DNA from: Clostridiales bacterium
GTDB taxonomy: Bacteria; Bacillota; Clostridia; Saccharofermentanales; Saccharofermentanaceae
DNA length: 51,699 nucleotides
Reading direction: 5' to 3'
NCBI GenBank assembly: GCA_017552455.1
Contig: JAFZPX010000057.1
Span: 1-51,699, forward strand
The translations under genes and the position numbers were made by a program. Below, in pieces: positions 11,428-26,710 of this stretch. Position 1 is the first letter of the stretch, and every line of letters begins with the position of its first letter. The notes under the pieces are model-generated. The model worked only from the letters and a program-made list of their open reading frames with translations. It was not told the DNA's origin and did not search any database.

Positions 11428-13095
11428 ATGAGATATAAGAAGGCTTTGGCTGCGCTGCTTGCTGTGTCGATGCTCGTTGCCGTCGGATGTGGCGTAAAGA
11501 ACACTGATAAGGAAGATACTGAGAAGATAACAGCGGCGACGGAAGGCTTTATTACAGCACTTAAGACTGACGATGCACAGCTGGCTGCCTCGTTGACTGA
11601 CGGGTTTGACATTATGGCAGATACGGAGCTCGACCGTGAACTCTGGGGCGATGATTACGACATCATCATGCATTCGCTTTCTTTTATCGAGATCGCGGAA
11701 TTCGGTGAAGTGGAGTTCGACCGCGAGGATAATACGGCTGTTATGAGTACGACGTTTTCTTTCCTTGATCTCGATAGCATGATCGCGGATCTGCCGACTG
11801 AATATCTGACGCACGATGAATGGATCTCGGCGATGGATGAGTGTGATGAAAGATCCGAGAAGACATTCAGTCTCGAGTTCTCTTATGAAGAGGAATCTGA
11901 GCAGTGGTATCTCGATAATGACAGTGCTGAGAAGATCGCTAAGTTTTTCCGTGACAGAGCTTGTGTGCTCTCGTTCCCTGTGTACATCTCGCAGGAGGAT
12001 GCAAGGGCATACTTTGATGCGTATATTGATGCGATGGTAAGCGGTGACTGCGAGCAGTTCATGGATGAGACGAATGAGGATACATACAGAGCGTATGATC
12101 CCGTCACGGTGCGCGGTGAAGGTGAGCTTACAGAGGAGGCTCTCGAGAATTTCATCAGTGCTTATATGGCTTATGTTATGGATCACGATCCCGAGATAAC
12201 AGAGGATGATCCTTACCACTATACGATCACAGGTCAGGCTCCGTCGTGTGATGAGCTCTCGGATGTGCTCTATACAGAAGAATTCCGTGTTAATTACTTC
12301 ATGAACTTTATACGAAGAGGCGACTGGAGCACATCACTCATAAGCGACCTTTTGTGGGATGAACAGTCTTCGTATATCTATAACTTGCTTGCGGAAACAA
12401 TCCCGCACTGTAGCCCTGAAGACTACACGCTCATGGCTTATATCGATCCGTATGCGGAAAATCCGGAAGAGACATTCACGATCTCTACAGAGCTTATAAA
12501 CGAGCCTTCCAGAACGATCTATGAGGCTGATCACAGCATGACATGGGATGAGACAAGAGAGACGGTCGAGCAGGCGCTGGATAATCTTCTTGAAGCAGGC
12601 GAGATCGATGAATATGAATACGCCGGCTGGATGGCAGGGCTTACTGCAGAGAACTATGGCTTTACTACTAGCGATACGGTAAGTTCATCCGGTCACCCGA
12701 ATCAGGCTGCAGGCACTAATGAGAGTGTGCCTGACTGGTGTGATGACGGAAGCATTATCTATGGCCACTCGAATCCTGACGAGAACGGCGTATGGATGTT
12801 CTACAGCAAAGAGCCCGGTGTGCTCGATACTGCAGGTTATTATATCGGCGACGGCGGCGTGTGGGTAATGAATTTCTTCGAACGTGATTTTGATGCAGGA
12901 ACAACCCTTATCGTCGACTGGTGGATAGATGATGAACTGGTCGTTGATACAGAGACCATCGACATCACTGAAGACGGCACGCAGGAGATTGAAGTCTTCC
13001 TCGATGAGAACCCGCACTCCGGTCAGGTCGTCGAGATGCGTCTGTGGGATGAAAGACACACGCACGTATATTCATACGTTATTCTGTACTTCTGA
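11428..13095 (+). CDS. Large lipoprotein, paralogue of 35073 and 47754 genes
   Basis: 555 residues with ribosome site AAGGGG and a lipoprotein signal ending in VAVGC. Two successive NTF2-like (DUF5105-type) modules of about 170 residues follow; the first contains FLDLDSMIADLPTEYLTHDE and FSYEEESEQWYLDNDSAEKI. Then come a Ser/Asn-rich linker (near 415-445) and a C-terminal beta-sandwich-like domain with paired Trp and Asp residues (VDWWIDDELVVDTETI). The same module order is seen in the lipoprotein at 47754, and the first modules in that at 35073. The role is unknown; it is likely exposed on the cell surface. Its stop abuts the convergent helicase gene with no terminator visible. Confidence 0.75.
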   Translation: MRYKKALAALLAVSMLVAVGCGVKNTDKEDTEKITAATEGFITALKTDDAQLAASLTDGFDIMADTELDRELWGDDYDIIMHSLSFIEIAEFGEVEFDREDNTAVMSTTFSFLDLDSMIADLPTEYLTHDEWISAMDECDERSEKTFSLEFSYEEESEQWYLDNDSAEKIAKFFRDRACVLSFPVYISQEDARAYFDAYIDAMVSGDCEQFMDETNEDTYRAYDPVTVRGEGELTEEALENFISAYMAYVMDHDPEITEDDPYHYTITGQAPSCDELSDVLYTEEFRVNYFMNFIRRGDWSTSLISDLLWDEQSSYIYNLLAETIPHCSPEDYTLMAYIDPYAENPEETFTISTELINEPSRTIYEADHSMTWDETRETVEQALDNLLEAGEIDEYEYAGWMAGLTAENYGFTTSDTVSSSGHPNQAAGTNESVPDWCDDGSIIYGHSNPDENGVWMFYSKEPGVLDTAGYYIGDGGVWVMNFFERDFDAGTTLIVDWWIDDELVVDTETIDITEDGTQEIEVFLDENPHSGQVVEMRLWDERHTHVYSYVILYF

Positions 13096-13695
13096 TTACT
13101 TGATCATCAGGTCGCCTTCAGTAAGCTCACCGAGTTCGAGTGCATATGCTATCGCGCTGTCGCACAGGTCCTTTACTTTTTGAGAGCTTGTCTTGAAGCC
13201 GAGAGCTTTTCCGGTCTCGCGGATCAGTGCGTCGCGCGGCATTCCGAACTGTGAACGTGCAAGCCAGATGGCAGCGCAGGCAGCCTCTTCGACAGGCACC
13301 TGATCAGCTGCTCTGTCTTCGCTGAAGCGCCATTCTTCGGGGATCCTCCAAGGTGCAGAAGTATCTTTCCATACGAAGTTCTTATCGCATTCCGGCGCCT
13401 TGTTGAGCGTGATGTTCTGCATGGTGACAGAGTACTTCAGAAGCTTAATGAGATAATCAACGCGTTCTTTTATCTTCTCTGTCTTACGAGTGATGCCGCA
13501 GGCCTCGCACAGTCTGTCCGTGAGAAGATCAACGCATATCGGCGCCTCAGCATCGACTATAGTCTTTGTCGCTGCTTTAAGCGTGTCGATATTCTGTGCG
13601 TCAGCAAACTGCGCCGCAGTAAGTACGGGTAGCGTGACGGATGCTTTCTTGTAAGGAACGGCAGGATTATCCTGCGGAATTATTCGTTTTTTTTT
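13096..13695 (-). CDS. -1 frame extension of the helicase gene: DUF3320-like C-terminus
   Basis: This frame has no start of its own near the junction. It continues, in the -1 frame, the helicase reading frame from the A9 run at 13687-13695. From the first codon past the slippery site (CGA at 13686) it encodes 196 residues. The segment DAEAPICVDLLTDRLCEACG followed by ITRKTEKIKERV, and later VPVEEAACAAIWLARSQFGM and DALIRETGKALGF, follows the two-lobed winged-helix pattern of DUF3320. That domain normally ends DUF4011-helicase proteins. The 0-frame product would lack it; a shift gives about 1,496 residues. Reading only from the internal ATG at 13422 would give an implausible 108-residue fragment. 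Confidence 0.75.
   Translation of the reverse strand, partial: KKKRIIPQDNPAVPYKKASVTLPVLTAAQFADAQNIDTLKAATKTIVDAEAPICVDLLTDRLCEACGITRKTEKIKERVDYLIKLLKYSVTMQNITLNKAPECDKNFVWKDTSAPWRIPEEWRFSEDRAADQVPVEEAACAAIWLARSQFGMPRDALIRETGKALGFKTSSQKVKDLCDSAIAYALELGELTEGDLMIK
13661..13692 (-). promoter_or_regulatory. Candidate -1 frameshift site (A AAA AAC plus hairpin)
   Basis: On the minus strand the 0 frame reads GCA AAA AAA AAC GAA TAA. This places the canonical slippery heptamer A AAA AAC (13692 down to 13686) in the correct phase, four bases before the 0-frame stop. Ten bases after the heptamer lies a hairpin, GCAGG-ATAAT-CCTGC (13675 down to 13661). The run of nine A also allows transcriptional slippage. 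A missing base from a homopolymer sequencing error would look the same. Confidence 0.55.
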
Positions 13696-16600
13696 GCGTC
13701 CTCAGCGGGCTGCGCGGGAACTTCGGGTGCTTCTTCAGCGAGCGCTTCCGCTTCGGGGGCCGGCGCCGCTTCCTTCGGTGCTTCGACCTTGTTGATCTTA
13801 TCAAGTATCGCCTTAATGACGGACTCGCTGTTTTCCCACCAGTCGATAGACCAGATCTTTATGGTCTTCCAGCCCAAGCCCTTAAGTATCGCAGGCTGCG
13901 CGATCTCGCGTGCGGTTGCCGTCGTGTGGCTGCCCGTGGCGGAGCCGTCGATAAGAATACCGAGACAGTAGCTGTCTGTGTCCTTCTTCCTTACTCCGAT
14001 ATCAACCTTGAAGCCTGACTTACCGATGGACTTCTCTGTCTCATAGCCTGCATCTGCAAGACTCTTGCGTATGCTTTCGATAATACCTGTAGAAGCCTTA
14101 TGAGCACTCTCGGAAGAAGCGTCAGCCTTTAAGTCTTCGCACCACAATTCGTTGCCCTCAGCATACATGAGGAATCTCTTGAATGCCTTTACGCCTTCTG
14201 GTGTTGCTTCGGAGACCTTGATCTGCTCAGGCTCGAGGGAGGAGAAGACCTTCATCTCGCATCTTGATCTCGTGACTGCAACGTTTAATCTTCTCCATCC
14301 GCCGTCTCTGTTAAGCGGACCGAAATTCATCGACACCTTACCCTCAGGATCGGGTCCGTAGCTTACGGAGAAGAGTATCACATCGCGCTCGTCTCCCTGA
14401 ACATTCTCGAGGTTCTTTATAAAGATCGGCTCCTCGCTTCCGAATGCCCATTTCTCGAAGTCCGCGTCTGTCCTGCACGCCTCGTCGATCATGTCCTCGA
14501 TAAGGTTCTGCTGCTGGATATTAAACGTTACGATACCGTGTGTAAGCTTGGAATTAACGGGATCCTTGGAACGTGCTACGAGTTCGTCAACCACGGCGCG
14601 TGCCTCAACTTCATTCGTGCGTGTCTTGCCGCTGTCGAATGTGCCATTACACGGAACAAGAGTAACTCGTGATTTGATGTCATCAACAGACGGGAACGTG
14701 TAGAGTTTGCTGTCGTAGAAGGCACGGTTCGAGAACGTGATGAGACTCTCGTGACGGCTTCTGTAGTGCCACAGGAGTCTGCTCTCGGGCATGCCTACTG
14801 CAAGGCAGTCATCGAGTATGCTCTCGAGGTCTTCCACCTCGTAATTCTCATCGTCAAACACCTGCTCCTTGAAGAAAGATGTCGGCGGCATCTGGTTCGG
14901 ATCGCCTACGACAACAGCATTCTTTCCCCTTGCAAGGACACCTACAGCCTTACATGTCGGAAGCTGGCTCGCCTCATCGAAAATAACCAGATCAAACATC
15001 GGCTCTTCCGAGGGCTCTATGAACTGCGCTGCAGACATCGGACTCATGAGCACACAGGGCGTGAGCTCGAGCACAACGTTGGAAATCTCTCTCATGAGGC
15101 TTCTTATGGATATTCCGCGTCCGTGGCTCTTGATCGCGCGCTGCAGCTTGCCGAGAGCCGAATCTTTATTGGCTGTCTCCATATCCTGCATCATAGAGCG
15201 CTGCATGAGCTTGCGGCGTATATCCTCTCTTGTGATTGTCTCGAATTCGTCAGAGAGCGCCTTAAGCTTCTTGATCTTGTCGTCAAAGATGCTTCCGCTG
15301 AATGTCCTTAACACCTCGGATCCGTCTATCGTCTTGCAGATAAGGAGTTTACTCCATGCCTTCATAAAGGCGGGGATAAGTGTCTCTTCGTTGACATCAC
15401 CCTTACTGAACGCTTCAATCAGCGCATGAAGCTTTAAGTTGTTGCACTTGGCGGAAGCGCCGTTAAGTATGATCCTTGGCCTGATCGAGCTCTCATTCGC
15501 GGTGATGTCATCGATGATGCTTATTACAGAATTAAAGTCTGCAGAAGTTGTTCCGGGTTCGAGGATCTTGATTCCTAATCTGCTGATTACTGCACCTCTT
15601 GCAGCATCGAACTCCTGACGTGCCTGTTTGAATTCTCCCAATACGGCAGGAACTCCCGCGGCTGTGTCGAATCCCATTGCAGCGAACTCGTTCTTATAAG
15701 CAAGAAGTGTATCTATGTGTTTGCCAAGTTCAGGTTCTGCGTTGCCGGACTTATCGTATGTTTTAACGGCAGCGTAGACTTTCTTTAAAGCGCCGGACTT
15801 AAGAGGTCCCCACTTGTTAGAAGCAGCTTCATATGAAGCCTTCAGTGAAGAAGCATCCTGCGCCAGGAACTCCATGGACCATGTCTTCAGGATCTCGGTT
15901 CGAGCGCCGAGGAAACGGTCGATCTTAGCTGCAGTGCGGTCCGCAGCTACGAGATCTGCACCCGCCTCAAGTGAAGGGAAAGAAGCCTTCACGGCATTAA
16001 AAGCCTGTTCGTATTTGTCCGTCGCAGCCTTAAAGGATGAAAGTTCTGCGCCGAGCTTTATCTTGGTATCTTGGCTGTATTCTGTCGCCTTGATATAAGG
16101 CAGCTTTCCTGCAAGTCCGTTTCCTGCGGCAATGAATTCTGCGAGAGCCGTTTCTGATGCGTTGATGCGCTCCTCTGTAAGACCCTCTTCGAAGCCGCTC
16201 TCGAGAATTACATTTGGCGTGCCCTCGTTCTCTGCGTAGATGTTCAGCATCTCGTAAAGAGTGTAGCCGCACGGTCTTACTGCAGTAAGCTCATCCGTGT
16301 ATGAACTGAGCTCTTCTCGTCTTGCGCAGATATCGTCCTGTTTCTTCTGATAGTCAGGATCGGTTACGGTGGTGTGGCGCACCTCGTATGCTTCCTTAAG
16401 CTGGTCGAGGACGTAACCTTTTCGTACTTTGTTGGAGTGAAGTTCGAGGCAGAACGGAGCCAGACCGATCTTGCTTAAACGCGCGTAAACCACGTCGAGC
16501 GCCGCCTTCTTCTCCGCGGCGAAAAGCACTTTCTGCCCGTTCGCGACAGCGTTTGCAATGATGGACGTGATCGTCTGCGACTTACCGGTTCCCGGAGGAC

Positions 16601-17585
16601 CGTGAAGCACGAAGCTTGCGCTTTTTACGGTGCCATCCTCTTCCTTGTGAGAAGCCTTGTAAATCGCGTAGAGCTGGGAAGAATCTGCAGAAATGGGAAG
16701 GTATACACAAGATTCATCATTAAAGCCTTTTCCGTCTTTCTCCATGTCCTCATATTCCCATGTAAGACGGCCTTCGATAAGGCTGTTTACGATCTTGTTG
16801 GATGCGATCTCGTCGCGGTAGTTATGAAGGTCGTGCCACATAACAAACTGCGAGAACTTGAACATGCCAAGTACGCATGCGTCGATTATCTGCCAGTCGG
16901 GCTTACTTGCGAGAGCGCCCTTCAAAGTATCAAATACACCCTGAACATCGATTCCGTGTTCGTCGGGAGGAATCTCTTTCTCGAGCTCGGGGATCAGGAT
17001 GTCAAAGTCCTGCTTGAGCTTCTCGAGAAGCGTGATGTTAACGACCGCATCATCGTCGATCTTACGCATGACGTAGCGGCCGACGCCGAATTTACGTACC
17101 AATTCGACCGGCACAAGGACTACAGGAGCATAGCAGTCGGATTCCTTCTTATCGTCGGTCCACTTAAGGAAGCCGCACGCGAGGAAGAGTGTGCCTGCGC
17201 CGTCCTCATCGAGCGCACTGCGCGACTCTCTGTAGAGTTTCTTGAGTCTGTCTTCGAGATCTTTGGTGGGAAGGGCGGAGTAGAGTTTCTTATCCTCGTT
17301 GCCTTTGTTCAGGATCTCATTGAAGCTTTCTGTATCAACCAGATCTTCGAGTTCATATTCCCTGGCGGGGATAGCCTCTTCGCCGGCTTCTGTTCTAGAG
17401 ATTATCGAGTATTCTTTATCGTCTGAGATATCGTCTTCGACGGTGCAGGAGGAAGTTACCAGCAACGGTACCGTGCTGCCTTTCATCTTCACATTAAGAA
17501 GTGCATTACGTGTCGTGAGATCGAGAAGCTTACGTTCCCACAGATCGAACTTGTCCTTAGCTCTGGAAGATGTGTTCTCAGACAT
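13680..17585 (-). CDS. DUF4011-helicase-nuclease, Hhe-like defence protein
   Basis: The 0-frame product is 1,301 residues. The order is: DUF4011 at the N-terminus (WERKLLDLTTRNALLNVKMK); SF1 helicase with Walker A G329-S336 (GPPGTGKS), a Walker B with D870-E871 (FDEAS), LLWHYRSRHESL, and a late NVAVTRSR motif near residue 1105; then a restriction-endonuclease-like (MTES_1575/Vsr-type) domain at about 1165-1265. Families of this kind unwind and cut DNA. The same order, ended by DUF3320, was reported from memory as the single-gene anti-phage system Hhe. In the nuclease domain the usual GIECDG reads GILIDG, so the expected Glu is missing. AAGGAGA precedes the start. The 0 frame ends in an Ala/Glu/Pro-rich tail just after an A9 run. 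Confidence 0.85.
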   Translation of the reverse strand: MSENTSSRAKDKFDLWERKLLDLTTRNALLNVKMKGSTVPLLVTSSCTVEDDISDDKEYSIISRTEAGEEAIPAREYELEDLVDTESFNEILNKGNEDKKLYSALPTKDLEDRLKKLYRESRSALDEDGAGTLFLACGFLKWTDDKKESDCYAPVVLVPVELVRKFGVGRYVMRKIDDDAVVNITLLEKLKQDFDILIPELEKEIPPDEHGIDVQGVFDTLKGALASKPDWQIIDACVLGMFKFSQFVMWHDLHNYRDEIASNKIVNSLIEGRLTWEYEDMEKDGKGFNDESCVYLPISADSSQLYAIYKASHKEEDGTVKSASFVLHGPPGTGKSQTITSIIANAVANGQKVLFAAEKKAALDVVYARLSKIGLAPFCLELHSNKVRKGYVLDQLKEAYEVRHTTVTDPDYQKKQDDICARREELSSYTDELTAVRPCGYTLYEMLNIYAENEGTPNVILESGFEEGLTEERINASETALAEFIAAGNGLAGKLPYIKATEYSQDTKIKLGAELSSFKAATDKYEQAFNAVKASFPSLEAGADLVAADRTAAKIDRFLGARTEILKTWSMEFLAQDASSLKASYEAASNKWGPLKSGALKKVYAAVKTYDKSGNAEPELGKHIDTLLAYKNEFAAMGFDTAAGVPAVLGEFKQARQEFDAARGAVISRLGIKILEPGTTSADFNSVISIIDDITANESSIRPRIILNGASAKCNNLKLHALIEAFSKGDVNEETLIPAFMKAWSKLLICKTIDGSEVLRTFSGSIFDDKIKKLKALSDEFETITREDIRRKLMQRSMMQDMETANKDSALGKLQRAIKSHGRGISIRSLMREISNVVLELTPCVLMSPMSAAQFIEPSEEPMFDLVIFDEASQLPTCKAVGVLARGKNAVVVGDPNQMPPTSFFKEQVFDDENYEVEDLESILDDCLAVGMPESRLLWHYRSRHESLITFSNRAFYDSKLYTFPSVDDIKSRVTLVPCNGTFDSGKTRTNEVEARAVVDELVARSKDPVNSKLTHGIVTFNIQQQNLIEDMIDEACRTDADFEKWAFGSEEPIFIKNLENVQGDERDVILFSVSYGPDPEGKVSMNFGPLNRDGGWRRLNVAVTRSRCEMKVFSSLEPEQIKVSEATPEGVKAFKRFLMYAEGNELWCEDLKADASSESAHKASTGIIESIRKSLADAGYETEKSIGKSGFKVDIGVRKKDTDSYCLGILIDGSATGSHTTATAREIAQPAILKGLGWKTIKIWSIDWWENSESVIKAILDKINKVEAPKEAAPAPEAEALAEEAPEVPAQPAEDAKKNE

Positions 17586-19486: not shown

Positions 19487-21844
19487 TCAGCTCAGTCCGC
19501 ACAACATGCCGATCAGTCTTGCGATAAACGCCATTACCCATGCGAGAGTGCACTGGAATATGACGACGGAGAGTGCCCATTTTCGTCCCATTTCGCGACG
19601 GATGGCAGCGACGGCTGCGACGCAGGGTGTGTAGATCAGTGAGAATACGAGCATCGAGACCGCGGTAAGTGTGCCGAGGGAGGAGACGCTCTCGCCGAAC
19701 ATGGTCGACATGACGGAGACTACGCTTTCTTTTGCCATGAAGCCCGAGATGAGAGACGTGATGATGCGCCAGTCGCCGAGTCCTATCGGTGCCATGACGG
19801 GCTCGAGGATGCCCGCGATGCTTGCAAGCATACTGTTCTGTGTGTCCTGCGTCAGGTTAAGACCGAAGTCGAAGTGCGAAAGGAACCAGACTACGATCGT
19901 CGCGATGAGGATGACGGAGAATGCGCGCTGGATGAAGTCCTTGCTCTTCTCCCACATGAGCTGAGTGACGTTGCGAACGCCCGGCAGACGGTAGTTCGGA
20001 AGTTCCATGACAAACGGGACGGCCTCGCCCTTGAAGATCGTGTGCTTGAAGCCTGTCGCCGCGACTATTCCCGTGATGATGCCGAGGATGTAGATCAATG
20101 TGACGATCAGCCAGCTGTAGCCGGGGAAGAAGACGTTTACGAAGAAGCCGTATATCGGAAGCTTTGCCGTGCACGACATGAAGGGAGTAAGAAGGATAGT
20201 CATCTTACGGTCGCGCTCGGAAGGAAGCGTTCTTGAGGACATAACGGCGGGTACCGTGCAGCCGAAGCCAATGAGCATCGGCACGATACTTCTTCCGGAA
20301 AGACCGATCTTTCTCAGGAGTTTATCCATAACGAAAGCTACACGTGCGATGTAGCCGCTGTCTTCAAGCATCGAAAGGAAGAAGAACAGCAGTATGACGA
20401 TAGGAAGGAAGCTGACGACAGTGCCGACACCCTCGAAGATTCCGTCGAGTATGAGGCTTTGGATCGCGTCGGTGACGTTCGCGGCCACCATGCCTTTTTC
20501 CACAAGGTTGCTTAAGGCTTCGATGCCGTCCGCTATAAGATCCTGGAAGAAAGGTCCTATAAGGAAGAACGTAAGATAGAACACGAGGCCCATGATGAGT
20601 ATGAACATCGGGATAGCGGTGAACTTACCTGTAAGTACGCTGTCGATCTTACGGCTTCTTATGTGTTCGCGGCTCTCGTGAGGCTTGATGACACACTCAT
20701 CGCACAGCTTCTGTATGAAGTCGAATCTCATCTCCGCCATTGCTGCACTGTGATCGAGGCCGCGCTCGTTCTCCATCTGAATGATTATGTGTTCGAGCAT
20801 CTCCTGCTCGTTCTTGTCGAGTTTAAGGATATCTACGAATGACATGTCGCCTTCGAGAAGCTTTGCTGCCGCGAATCTGAAGGGGATGCCTTCACGCTTG
20901 CCGTGGTCCTCGATGAGGTGGCTGACCGCGTGGAAAGCTCTGTGTACAGCGCCTCCGTGATCTTCCGGGTCGCAGTAGTCGTATCTTACGGGGCGCTCCT
21001 GGTATTTCGCGATGTGGATCGCATGACGTACAAGCTCGTCTACACCTTCGTTCTTGGCAGCGGAGATAGGTACTACAGGTACTCCGAGCATAGCCTCCAT
21101 TGAGTTAACGTCGACAGTACCGCCGTTGCCGCGAAGCTCGTCCATCATGTTAAGAGCAACTACCATCGGGACGTTCATCTCGAGAAGCTGCATCGTAAGA
21201 TACAGGTTACGCTCGATGTTAGTCGCGTCTACGATGTTGATTATTGCCTTGGGTTTCTCGTTAAGCACGAAGTTTCTCGATACCATCTCTTCGCTAGAGA
21301 AGGGGGACATCGAGTAAATGCCGGGAAGGTCTGTGATCAGTGTGTTTTCCTGCCCTCTGATCTGACCGTCCTTGCGGTCGACCGTAACTCCGGGGAAGTT
21401 ACCGACATGCTGGTTGGATCCTGTGAGCTGATTAAAGAGCGTAGTCTTACCGCAGTTCTGGTTGCCTACCAGTGCGAATGTCAGAAGTGTTCCGTCGGGA
21501 AGTGGATCGCCGTCACCTTCGCGGTGGAATTTACCTTCCTCACCGAGACCCGGGTGTTCATTGGTCTTGCGTCCGGACAGGGTCTTCTTGTTTACCTGCT
21601 TCTCTGATTCTTCGCCGGGTTCTATCTGTTCTATCTCGATTTGCTCGGCCTCTGCGAGTCTTAGAGTCAACTCGTATCCGTGTATGCGAAGTTCCATGGG
21701 GTCGCCCAAAGGAGCGAGCTTGATCACCGTGACTTCAGCTCCGGGGATCATACCCATATCGAGAAAATGCTGTCTTAATGCGCCCTCGCCGCCGACAGTT
21801 GTGATTCTGGCGGACTGACCGGGCTGTAACGAATTAAGCTTCAT
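19487..21844 (-). CDS. feoB: Ferrous iron transporter, FeoA-FeoB fusion
   Basis: 785 residues. Residues 1-75 are a complete FeoA SH3-like domain (LDMGMIPGAEVTVIKLAPLGD); a charged linker leads to the FeoB GTPase from about 120, with G1 GNQNCGKT, the GNFPGVTV switch region, DLPGIYS (G3) and NMMDE (G4). The membrane part has two Gate-type halves with the conserved cysteines in LIGFGCTVPAVM and TPFMSCTAKLPIYGFF. It imports Fe2+ under anaerobic conditions. The FeoA fusion replaces a separate partner. It follows the DtxR-family gene by two bases and is the second FeoB in the locus. Confidence 0.95.
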   Translation of the reverse strand: MKLNSLQPGQSARITTVGGEGALRQHFLDMGMIPGAEVTVIKLAPLGDPMELRIHGYELTLRLAEAEQIEIEQIEPGEESEKQVNKKTLSGRKTNEHPGLGEEGKFHREGDGDPLPDGTLLTFALVGNQNCGKTTLFNQLTGSNQHVGNFPGVTVDRKDGQIRGQENTLITDLPGIYSMSPFSSEEMVSRNFVLNEKPKAIINIVDATNIERNLYLTMQLLEMNVPMVVALNMMDELRGNGGTVDVNSMEAMLGVPVVPISAAKNEGVDELVRHAIHIAKYQERPVRYDYCDPEDHGGAVHRAFHAVSHLIEDHGKREGIPFRFAAAKLLEGDMSFVDILKLDKNEQEMLEHIIIQMENERGLDHSAAMAEMRFDFIQKLCDECVIKPHESREHIRSRKIDSVLTGKFTAIPMFILIMGLVFYLTFFLIGPFFQDLIADGIEALSNLVEKGMVAANVTDAIQSLILDGIFEGVGTVVSFLPIVILLFFFLSMLEDSGYIARVAFVMDKLLRKIGLSGRSIVPMLIGFGCTVPAVMSSRTLPSERDRKMTILLTPFMSCTAKLPIYGFFVNVFFPGYSWLIVTLIYILGIITGIVAATGFKHTIFKGEAVPFVMELPNYRLPGVRNVTQLMWEKSKDFIQRAFSVILIATIVVWFLSHFDFGLNLTQDTQNSMLASIAGILEPVMAPIGLGDWRIITSLISGFMAKESVVSVMSTMFGESVSSLGTLTAVSMLVFSLIYTPCVAAVAAIRREMGRKWALSVVIFQCTLAWVMAFIARLIGMLCGLS

Positions 21845-22866: not shown

Positions 22867-25263
22867 ATGAGTACAGTAATAGCCTTAGCAGGTAACCCGA
22901 ACAGCGGTAAGACAACTCTGTTCAATGCGTTGACCGGTTCCAACCAGTTCGTAGGTAACTGGCCCGGCGTAACGGTAGAGAAGAAGGAAGGTAAACTTAA
23001 GAAGCACGAAGATGTAACTATCACAGACCTTCCGGGTATCTATTCACTTTCCCCTTATACACTCGAGGAAGTTGTAGCAAGAAACTACCTCATCAACGAG
23101 CGTCCCGATGCTATCCTTAACATCATCGACGGTACTAACCTTGAGCGTAACCTCTATCTGACAACACAGCTGACAGAGCTCGGTATCCCGGTAGTAATCG
23201 CAGTAAACATGATGGATATCGTCGAGAAGAACGGCGACAAGATCAATACTGAAGAACTCTCAAGACAGCTCGGCTGCAAGGTAGTAAACATCTCCGCTTT
23301 GAAGGGCGACAATGTTATCTCAGCTGCAGAGGCTGCCATCGAAGCTGCAAAGAACGGTAAGACCGTTCCGATGCATACATTCTCAGGTCCTGTAGAGCAT
23401 GCAATCGCTCATATTGAGGAAGCTGCAGTTCACGGACTTCCTGAAGAGAGACAGAGGTGGTATGCGATCAAGATCTTCGAGAGAGACGATAAGGTTCTCG
23501 AGCAGCTTAGTATCGATCCTTCCACAATGCAGCACATCGAGCATGACATCGCTGCAGCTGAGAAGGAGCTCGATGACGATGCAGAGAGCATCATCACAAA
23601 CGAGCGTTATATTTACATCGCAGAAGTCATCAAGTCCTGCTACAAGAAGAGAAATGCTGGCGGACTTACAACATCCGATAAGATCGATAAGATCGTAACT
23701 AACAGATGGCTCGGTCTTCCTATCTTCGCAGTAATCATGTTCCTCGTTTACTGGATCGCGATGGTAGGTGTAGGTGCACCTGCAACAGACTTTACAAACG
23801 ACTGCATCTTCGGTGACGGATTCCACCTTTTCGGCATGGACGGCGGTTACGGTGAGATCGCAGAAGAGTATGCGGGTGCATCCGCTATCGTTGACGGTTA
23901 CTATGCATATGTAGAAGAGAACGGCGAGGCTCCTGTAGCTGAGTTCACATATGAAGTAGAAGACGAAGAGACACTCGAGATTACAGAAGAGACAGCAACG
24001 ATTGCTGAGTACGAAGATGCTGCAGCTTTCCTTGATGAGATCGGCGATGAGCCGGATCCTGCTGATTACGGAACATGGGTTCCCGGTATTCCTGCACTTG
24101 TTGAGAGCGGTCTTGATAAGGCTAACACTTCCGACTGGCTCAAGGGTCTTATCCTTGACGGTATCGTAGCCGGCGTAGGTGCGGTTCTTGGCTTCGTTCC
24201 TCAGATGCTCGTACTCTTCCTTATGCTCGCATTCCTCGAGGCTTGCGGTTATATGGCACGTATCGCATTCGTACTTGACCGTATCTTCAGAAAGTTCGGT
24301 CTTTCCGGTAAGTCATTCATTCCTATGCTCGTAGGCGTAGGTTGCGGCGTTCCGGGTATCATGGCTAGCCGCACCATAGAAAATGAGCGCGACAGAAGAA
24401 TGACTATCATGACAACAACATTCATTCCCTGCGGCGCTAAGCTTCCTTTCATCGGAATGGTCGTAGGTGCGATCTTCGACGGCAATGCTTGGATCTCCGC
24501 TTCCGCTTACTTCATCGGTATGGCAGCGATCATCATCTCCGGTATCATGCTTAAGAAGACAAAGATGTTCTCCGGTCAGCCTGCTCCTTTCGTAATGGAG
24601 CTTCCTGCTTACCACATGCCTACACTCGGCAATGTTCTGAGATCCATGTGGGAGCGCGGCTGGTCCTTCATCAAGAAGGCAGGAACTATCATCCTTCTTT
24701 CCACTATCGTTGTATGGTTCACAAGCTTCTTCGGCTTCACTGACGAAGGCTTCCGTATGCTTTCCGATGACGAGCTCGATCTTTCTCTGCTCGCTACTAT
24801 CGGTAACGCTATCGCTTGGATCTTCATTCCTCTGGGTTGGGGTAACTGGCAGGCAACTGTCGCATCCATCACAGGTCTTGTTGCTAAGGAGAATATCGTA
24901 GGTACTATGGGCATCCTCTATGGCGGCGGAGAGCTTACTGCATGGCAGACACTTGCTCAGAACTTCAACGGTGTAACGGGTATGTCATTCCTCGTATTCA
25001 ATCTCCTGTGCGCACCTTGCTTTGCTGCTATCGGTGCCATCAAGCGTGAGATGAATAACGCTAAGTGGACATGGTTCGCGATCGCTTATCAGTGCGGATT
25101 CGCTTATGTGATCTCGCTCATGATCAACCAGTTCGGCGGTCTTATCACAGGTGACGTAAATGTTATCGGTCTGATCTTCGCTGTAGCGGCACTCGGATTC
25201 ATTATCTACATGCTGTTTATCAAGAAGTACAAGGAAGCTGATAAGCTTACTAAGGTTTCTTAA
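22867..25263 (+). CDS. feoB: Ferrous iron transporter FeoB
   Basis: 798 residues. The GTPase occupies about 1-165, with GNPNSGKT (G1), GNWPGVTV, DLPGIYS (G3) and NMMD (G4). The membrane domain begins near 285 and carries the Gate motifs GVGCGVPGIMASRTI and FIPCGAKLPFIGMV. Between the first membrane helix and the next conserved part there is an unusual acidic stretch, about residues 307-408, far longer than the usual loop, with segments such as YEVEDEETLEITEETATIAE. It should lie outside the cell. Third gene of the repressor-controlled rightward operon and co-transcribed with a Cys-rich partner. Confidence 0.95.
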   Translation: MSTVIALAGNPNSGKTTLFNALTGSNQFVGNWPGVTVEKKEGKLKKHEDVTITDLPGIYSLSPYTLEEVVARNYLINERPDAILNIIDGTNLERNLYLTTQLTELGIPVVIAVNMMDIVEKNGDKINTEELSRQLGCKVVNISALKGDNVISAAEAAIEAAKNGKTVPMHTFSGPVEHAIAHIEEAAVHGLPEERQRWYAIKIFERDDKVLEQLSIDPSTMQHIEHDIAAAEKELDDDAESIITNERYIYIAEVIKSCYKKRNAGGLTTSDKIDKIVTNRWLGLPIFAVIMFLVYWIAMVGVGAPATDFTNDCIFGDGFHLFGMDGGYGEIAEEYAGASAIVDGYYAYVEENGEAPVAEFTYEVEDEETLEITEETATIAEYEDAAAFLDEIGDEPDPADYGTWVPGIPALVESGLDKANTSDWLKGLILDGIVAGVGAVLGFVPQMLVLFLMLAFLEACGYMARIAFVLDRIFRKFGLSGKSFIPMLVGVGCGVPGIMASRTIENERDRRMTIMTTTFIPCGAKLPFIGMVVGAIFDGNAWISASAYFIGMAAIIISGIMLKKTKMFSGQPAPFVMELPAYHMPTLGNVLRSMWERGWSFIKKAGTIILLSTIVVWFTSFFGFTDEGFRMLSDDELDLSLLATIGNAIAWIFIPLGWGNWQATVASITGLVAKENIVGTMGILYGGGELTAWQTLAQNFNGVTGMSFLVFNLLCAPCFAAIGAIKREMNNAKWTWFAIAYQCGFAYVISLMINQFGGLITGDVNVIGLIFAVAALGFIIYMLFIKKYKEADKLTKVS

Positions 25264-25612: not shown

Positions 25613-26710
25613 ATGATCAGAAGCGTTCTTACTAATGAAATCGTAAAATATATCACTGATATCGATAAGAACAGATATCAGGTCTCGTCAGTAAAACTAT
25701 CAAGATCTGTGGCTAATAAGCTGCGCAAGAATTCGAAGAAGAAGAGCTCTTATGCTTCTAATAAGATCGAAGGCAACCCCTTGTCGGAGCAGCAGGTCGA
25801 TGAAGTAATCGAGCGCGACGAGCATAAGCATTTCCTTAAGCCTGAGCAGGAAGTGCGTAATTACTTTCTTGCACTTGAGTATCTGGAAGAAAAAGCGAAA
25901 TCAAAAGAGAAACTCTCAAAGAAACTGATACTCGCTGTACAGAAGCTTGTCGAAAAGGGGGCATCAAAAGAAAAGATAGGACTCAGAGGTCCTATGCCGC
26001 CAGGTGTTCTGTTTGCTGTTTATGATTCACAGACTGGCAATCCGGAATATATACCGCCTGAGTATAGTGATATCCCCGGTCTTCTTGACGAATTGATCGA
26101 GTATGTAAATACTACTGACGATCATCCGCTGCTCGTTGCCGCTATTGTTCATTATCAATTAGTAACGATACATCCTTTCGAAGACGGTAACGGAAGAACC
26201 GCGAGACTTATATCCGGATACATACTTGATATAAATGGCTATGGCTTTAACGGTATCGGATCTTTGGAAGAGTATTTCGCGTATGATATCAACGAATACT
26301 ACAACTCGATCCAGATGGGATTGCCGGTTCTTTATTATTCGGGAAGAAATGATCCGCCTCATCCTGAGATATGGATCAATTATTTCCTGCGTATGGTTCT
26401 TCTGTATTCCGGCAGAGTGTGCGAATTATCGGAAAGCTCGAATGGAGAAGATATCGAAGGTAGTATCTCTTATCTTAAAACGAAAGAGAGGGAGTTGCTG
26501 CTTCATCTGATCAACAAACATAAAATAGAGTTTACGCCGATCGAGATAAGCCGTGAGACAGGCATTTCCAACAGGACTCTTATTAACAGGCTGTCTGTCC
26601 TCGCCAAAAGCGGCTTCGTAGAGCCGATATTGGTAAATCAGAGAGTAAGATCTTACAAACTCAGTGAGTTTGCTTTAGATAACGTGTCTGCCATCAAAAA
26701 GTTGATTTGA
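25613..26710 (+). CDS. Fic-domain protein (predicted AMP transferase)
   Basis: 365 residues; GAGGGAA is the ribosome site. The Fic core carries the full active motif H187-PFEDGNGRTAR (HPFx(D/E)GNGRxxR), so it should transfer AMP from ATP to a protein hydroxyl. Residues 49-54 (SNKIEG) match the inhibitory helix motif (S/T)xxxE(G/N), with E53 the blocking Glu; being N-terminal to the Fic core, this is a class II, self-inhibited Fic. A C-terminal winged helix (about 300-350, FTPIEISRETGISNRTLINR) suggests DNA or partner binding. Such proteins often serve in stress control or as toxins. It sits between FeoB genes and decayed genes, so it was probably inserted there. Confidence 0.93.
   Translation: MIRSVLTNEIVKYITDIDKNRYQVSSVKLSRSVANKLRKNSKKKSSYASNKIEGNPLSEQQVDEVIERDEHKHFLKPEQEVRNYFLALEYLEEKAKSKEKLSKKLILAVQKLVEKGASKEKIGLRGPMPPGVLFAVYDSQTGNPEYIPPEYSDIPGLLDELIEYVNTTDDHPLLVAAIVHYQLVTIHPFEDGNGRTARLISGYILDINGYGFNGIGSLEEYFAYDINEYYNSIQMGLPVLYYSGRNDPPHPEIWINYFLRMVLLYSGRVCELSESSNGEDIEGSISYLKTKERELLLHLINKHKIEFTPIEISRETGISNRTLINRLSVLAKSGFVEPILVNQRVRSYKLSEFALDNVSAIKKLI

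Follow-up and report, generated by a model that had tools for sequence, protein, structure and literature searches.

Slippage that yields two products from one gene is already known for dnaX, tssM, and transposases. In the cited accounts of Thermus dnaX, a run of nine A residues (A9) with close stops in both other frames gives rise to tau and gamma through polymerase slippage (PMC1088944; PMC5009743), and polymerase insertions are described as predominating in A/T runs and as increasing with run length (PMC5574713). In Citrobacter rodentium tssM1, slippage is reported on an A11 run with a stop just past the poly-A; it restores a C-terminal domain, and the long and short products are both required, as is the ratio between them (PMC4256274). 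A published rule states that orthologues needing a shift in one uniform direction indicate ribosomal frameshifting, whereas differing directions indicate transcriptional slippage (PMC3711429, section 10). In the literature searched (open-licence papers, from incomplete lists), we found no report of recoding in the DUF4011 helicase–nuclease family. Here, we describe a gene of this family in which a conserved A9 run probably undergoes slippage, most likely by RNA polymerase, yielding a short helicase–nuclease and a long form with a predicted tandem winged helix.

In the window (i.e., the whole 51,699-nucleotide stretch of DNA that was analyzed), the 0 frame of the gene runs from 17585 to 13680 on the minus strand, comprises 1301 codons and ends GCA AAA AAA AAC GAA TAA, and its 1301-aa translation, the short form, ends AKKNE. 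By profile matches, this open reading frame (13680..17585, −) carries DUF4011 (PF13195; residues 19–190, 17016..17531, −; 134 bits), an SF1 helicase in two parts—AAA_11 (PF13086; best stretch residues 301–375, 16461..16685, −, containing GPPGTGKS) and AAA_12 (PF13087; residues 933–1115, 14241..14789, −; 54.1 bits)—and a Vsr-like nuclease domain (REase MTES_1575, PF18741; residues 1170–1264, 13794..14078, −; 71.8 bits). The A9 run, our candidate slippage site, lies at 13687..13695 (−) and holds both A AAA AAA and A AAA AAC in phase; GAA is the sole codon between it and the 0-frame stop (TAA, 13680..13682, −). The −1 frame (13096..13701, −) stays open for 201 codons, of which the 196 beyond the run reach down to 13099, ahead of a stop at 13098..13096, and would supply the tail of the long form, with DUF3320 (PF11784; residues 28–76 of the −1 translation, 13465..13611, −) matched at 43.3 bits against a gathering cut-off of 25. 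Re-reading of the frames and the profile match bore out what the initial annotation had described from the letters: a 0 frame closing just past A9, a 196-codon −1 frame with DUF3320, an A AAA AAC heptamer in phase for a −1 shift (13692..13686, −), and a hairpin beginning 10 nt past that heptamer (13661..13675, −), though its stem is one pair longer in RNAfold than had been drawn (stem GCAGGA/TCCTGC, loop TAA, i.e., GCAGGA-TAA-TCCTGC; −8.5 kcal/mol, z = −2.8 against 100 shuffles). Also in the window, a convergent 555-aa open reading frame lacking a Pfam match (11428..13095, +) ends right against the stop codon that closes the C-terminal frame (13096, −), two FeoB iron transporters, one with a fused FeoA domain, lie close together (19490..21844, −; 22867..25260, +), and a Fic/DOC-family protein is encoded at 25613..26707 (+).

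Across the genus, the C-terminal part was detected in 69 of 85 genomes; 70 loci were fetched, and with L074 (no match with the query used) and L077 (a fragment) dropped, 68 genes with both parts were compared. In 25 of these the reading frame breaks where it does in the window; the other 43 are unsplit. Besides the window, the split thus recurs in 24 other genomes, 23 times in −1 and once in +1, so that the C-terminal part lies in −1 in 24 of the 25 split genes and in +1 in one (L014). The window genome is a draft (2,038,078 bases, 69 contigs, 69% complete) and homopolymers are prone to sequencing error, yet this recurrence excludes the sequencing error that the initial annotation had considered. 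Among split-gene pairs, dN/dS of the C-terminal part is 0.05–0.14 in 9 of 13 pairs (dS is saturated in the other four), which argues that the sequence behind the run is translated and kept; with both observations in hand, we find it barely credible that the split stems from faulty sequencing or assembly or from decay into a pseudogene.

The run itself is not confined to split genes. Exactly A9 stands at the same junction in 36 of the 43 unsplit genes, usually coded CAA AAA AAA ACn inside an acidic linker, while the other seven have no run and form one clade of the genus tree (a quick maximum-likelihood tree of 68 rows, midpoint-rooted for drawing only); these seven genes count against the slippage reading. 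Among split genes, the run is A9 in 21, A7 in three (L060, L070, and L073) and A10 in L014, giving a length of exactly nine in 57 of the 61 run-bearing genes. On the tree, run presence changes once and run length only four times, but six switches between split and unsplit are counted (no fewer than five are forced by starred branches), and these changes of frame arise via indels beside the run, with A9 retained. The initial annotation had proposed recoding that gives products with and without the C-terminal domain, and this is now well supported; the conserved element, however, is A9, found in all three codon phases among the run-bearing genes and in most unsplit genes, rather than the A AAA AAC heptamer. 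In keeping with the initial annotation, the close relatives retain both A9 and the split, and the outcome in which all relatives encode the protein in one frame without a run did not arise.

These same patterns disfavor a second suggestion made at the outset, namely phase variation at the DNA level, in which replication slippage at the run would toggle the long form between cells. Such a switch would have its homopolymer of nine at the switch point, L014 does carry A10 and the other frame, and two protein clusters—P0048 (1478 aa, QKKKH) and P0055 (1713 aa, 108 members, QKT)—suggest, at the protein level only, rare A11 and A6 relatives. Against it, the length stays at nine while the downstream frame changes through adjoining indels, and the eight closest database clusters listed (66–95% identity; 141 member sequences) all end at the same place without DUF3320 and include no long variant, although clustering at 90% could hide some. 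We regard phase variation as very unlikely.

Constraint on the run extends to its codons and to the frames around it. Gln-Lys-Lys is coded CAA AAA AAA AC at 44 of 44 run sites read in that phase, at an expected fraction of 0.0021, in genes that otherwise prefer AAG over AAA for Lys (3706 vs. 937) and CAG over CAA for Gln (1980 vs. 105); loci were recognized by the run, yet no gene lacks it except those of the seven-gene clade, and this count therefore omits no miss. All 36 unsplit A9 genes meet a −1 stop no later than 1 codon past the run and a +1 stop no later than 5 codons past it; elsewhere at codon boundaries in these genes, the corresponding baselines are 0.162 and 0.210 (0.024 for both frames together). 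Relatedness inflates these closure counts, but the early −1 stop is spelled by 13 different post-run heptanucleotides. All 21 split A9 genes meet a +1 stop within 5 codons, and 20 of them a 0-frame stop within 9, the remaining one reaching its 0-frame stop at codon 21. The window run is the sole exact nine-A run on either strand of its 2,038,078-base assembly, for which a model of independent bases predicts about 12 (the count took exactly nine A's, with longer runs outside it), and the median across the 85 genomes is 4 exact A9 runs per genome. Run length, codon-level conservation, a single open frame behind the run, fast closure of the others, and purifying selection on the C-terminal part of split genes can be read from the sequences themselves.

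How the C-terminal part would come to be translated in split genes is a separate matter, and one possibility is that it is a gene of its own, begun by reinitiation or at an internal start. In 22 of the 25 split genes, the stretch from the run to the DUF3320 signature contains at least one ATG, GTG, or TTG, and gene callers begin the C-terminal part at such codons (P0003, P0012, and P0016). In the window and in L044, however, none lies in that interval (L014 is listed as a third such gene through a false early motif match): the first in the window −1 frame is codon 93 of 201, beyond the DUF3320 match, and L044 has none in its whole C-terminal part, so an ordinary internal start ahead of DUF3320 cannot supply this domain in the window. 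Separate genes would also not need a frame that always overlaps and lies in −1 in 24 of 25 cases, and they leave the A9 of unsplit genes unexplained. We consider this reading highly improbable.

In our preferred reading—slippage on A9—the frame encoded in the DNA would determine only which form is the default. In the window, the DNA frame would give the short form, and the long form would come from transcripts with one additional A (or from a −1 shift of the ribosome); in the 36 unsplit relatives with A9, the DNA frame would give the long form and slippage the short one. If both forms are made from either starting state, the encoded frame could wander as long as the run is retained. The layout resembles that of Thermus dnaX (A9 with nearby stops in both other frames), and we place polymerase first for the A9 genes, though loosely. 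An inserted A leads into the −1 frame, and the predominance of insertions would account for −1 being the direction required in most split genes. A stretch of about nine or more A/T in the coding strand, as transcriptional realignment calls for, is found at the window A9 and in 57 of the 61 run-bearing genes plus the A10 gene, but not in the A7 genes, and both non-productive frames close soon in the A9 genes, as the closure counts above attest. That slippage on A9 is frequent enough to be useful, that in the A9 genes it would be the work of polymerase and not of the ribosome, and that both forms would be needed are steps we infer from these patterns; for a useful role of the short form, this sequence-only analysis found no direct evidence.

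Programmed −1 ribosomal frameshifting of the Escherichia coli dnaX type is the most substantial rival to polymerase slippage. The encoded frame among genes compared for direction is 0 in 36 A9 genes, −1 in 24 genes, and +1 in one (L014), and by the published rule the shared direction of 24 of 25 split genes points to ribosomal shifting, the opposite case being a single assembly. All 24 genes split in −1 (24/24) have A AAA AAA or A AAA AAC in phase; any A9 contains such a heptamer automatically, however, which leaves phase uninformative for the A9 genes. Upstream, an SD-like motif is present in 21 of 25 split genes vs. 3 of 36 unsplit genes, with mean anti-SD duplex values of −6.4 and −3.0, respectively, yet the tree leaves no more than 5 independent pairs for this association, which does not reach significance. 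Sequences downstream of the run fold weakly in A9 genes (mean z −0.84 in split and −0.42 in unsplit genes), the hairpin described above being present in the window and in the two relatives nearest to it. An A7 run is enough for a ribosomal slippery site, yet A9 is kept exact in nearly all run-bearing genes, and the +1 frame, whose closure a −1 shift does not need, is also shut at once in A9 genes but open for 14–24 codons in the three A7 genes. Those three genes look like ribosomal −1 frameshifting sites: the heptamer is in phase in 3 of 3, and each is followed at 5 nt by a stem of 8 bp (−16.8 kcal/mol, z −3.4 to −4.4). As an account of the second form in all genes of the genus, ribosomal frameshifting seems unlikely to us. 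Rather, on the question of mechanism that the initial annotation had left open, the evidence points to polymerase in the A9 genes and to the ribosome in the three A7 genes. One clade holds both kinds of site, L067 and L075 with A9 and a weak or decayed hairpin and L060, L070, and L073 with A7 and a strong hairpin, as though either feature could stand in for the other.

We extend polymerase slippage to a broader conceptual model, to which we give an even chance: that A9 may act as a frame-blind isoform dial in 61 species, in which the run would be selected rather than the frame, the encoded frame would shift from long to short and back, the mix of long and short forms would be fixed, and A7 plus a hairpin would substitute for A9. 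By analogy with TssM, the long:short ratio would set when the nuclease acts, and the C-terminal part may dock on or sense nucleic acid or a partner. This part was modeled with AlphaFold (21 sequences; pLDDT 85, pTM 0.76) as two helix-helix-helix-strand units, i.e., a predicted tandem winged helix, with weak matches in the structure database; a published account places a tandem wHTH over DUF3320 in MTES_1575 (PMC3710099).

Judging by its profile matches, the gene belongs to a helicase–nuclease family that is likely used against phages. It shares DUF4011, an SF1 helicase, and a Vsr-like nuclease with ProA, PDC-S37, and Hhe, and ProA and PDC-S37 both also match the DUF3320 part. Scores fall below the curated cut-offs of ProA (NF058533; 1297.8 bits for the short form, 1332.3 and 1363.2 for unsplit L032 and L033; cut-off 1500) and Hhe (NF042953; 700.7, 699.8, and 717.1 bits; cut-off 2000), and the profile of the PADLOC candidate PDC-S37, for which no curated cut-off is given, is matched at 949.1 bits by the short form, 62.9 by the −1 part, and 1018.3 by L032. 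Unlike genes of anti-phage islands, this one is near-core—present in 71 of the 85 genomes of the genus—and sits amid housekeeping-type genes. Beyond the genus, the C-terminal part was found in 0 of 30 other genomes of the family and 7 of 73 further genomes of the order, and sporadically in a sample of the class (30 of 391, 9 of these from the same genus). No run or split at the same place was found among the relatives outside the genus that match the ProA, PDC-S37, and Hhe models. Two relatives beyond the genus, L154 (G162) and L156 (G435), have frame breaks within or upstream of DUF3320, away from A-runs.

If the proposal is true, slippage on a helicase–nuclease of anti-phage type would add or omit a predicted winged-helix part, and this would be the first recoded effector of that type with a sensor domain dosed by slippage. 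A practical consequence concerns annotation, as gene callers file split genes as truncated DUF4011 proteins; among the 120 nearest clusters listed, 42 end before the C-terminal part, 40 of these in the Lys-Lys tail. Two short-form clusters, P0123 and P0124, end SENEGEGG without such a tail, possibly at another junction. The genus also offers a natural series—one run, three encoded frames, and a contrast between A9 and A7 plus hairpin—and its paired native A9 and A7 sites make the roles of polymerase and ribosome at A-runs testable.

Compared with known systems, the unsplit A9 genes come close to Thermus thermophilus dnaX as the cited accounts portray it, with a late A9, an encoded long form, nearby stops, and products with or without a C-terminal domain (PMC1088944; PMC5009743). 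The Thermus gene, however, encodes a polymerase subunit rather than a helicase–nuclease, and here slippage is predicted and the encoded frame changes six times on the genus tree while A9 is kept. Escherichia coli dnaX combines an A-rich heptamer, an SD-like element upstream, and a stem-loop downstream, of which the three A7 genes have the heptamer and a strong stem; its shift leads to the short form, whereas that of the A7 genes would lead to the long form, and the A9 genes have no consistent stem-loop. Citrobacter rodentium tssM1 likewise has its stop just after the poly-A run, and at both loci slippage would regain a C-terminal domain (PMC4256274), but the run there is an A11 in a secretion gene, while here it is an A9 that is genus-wide and occurs in both polarities.
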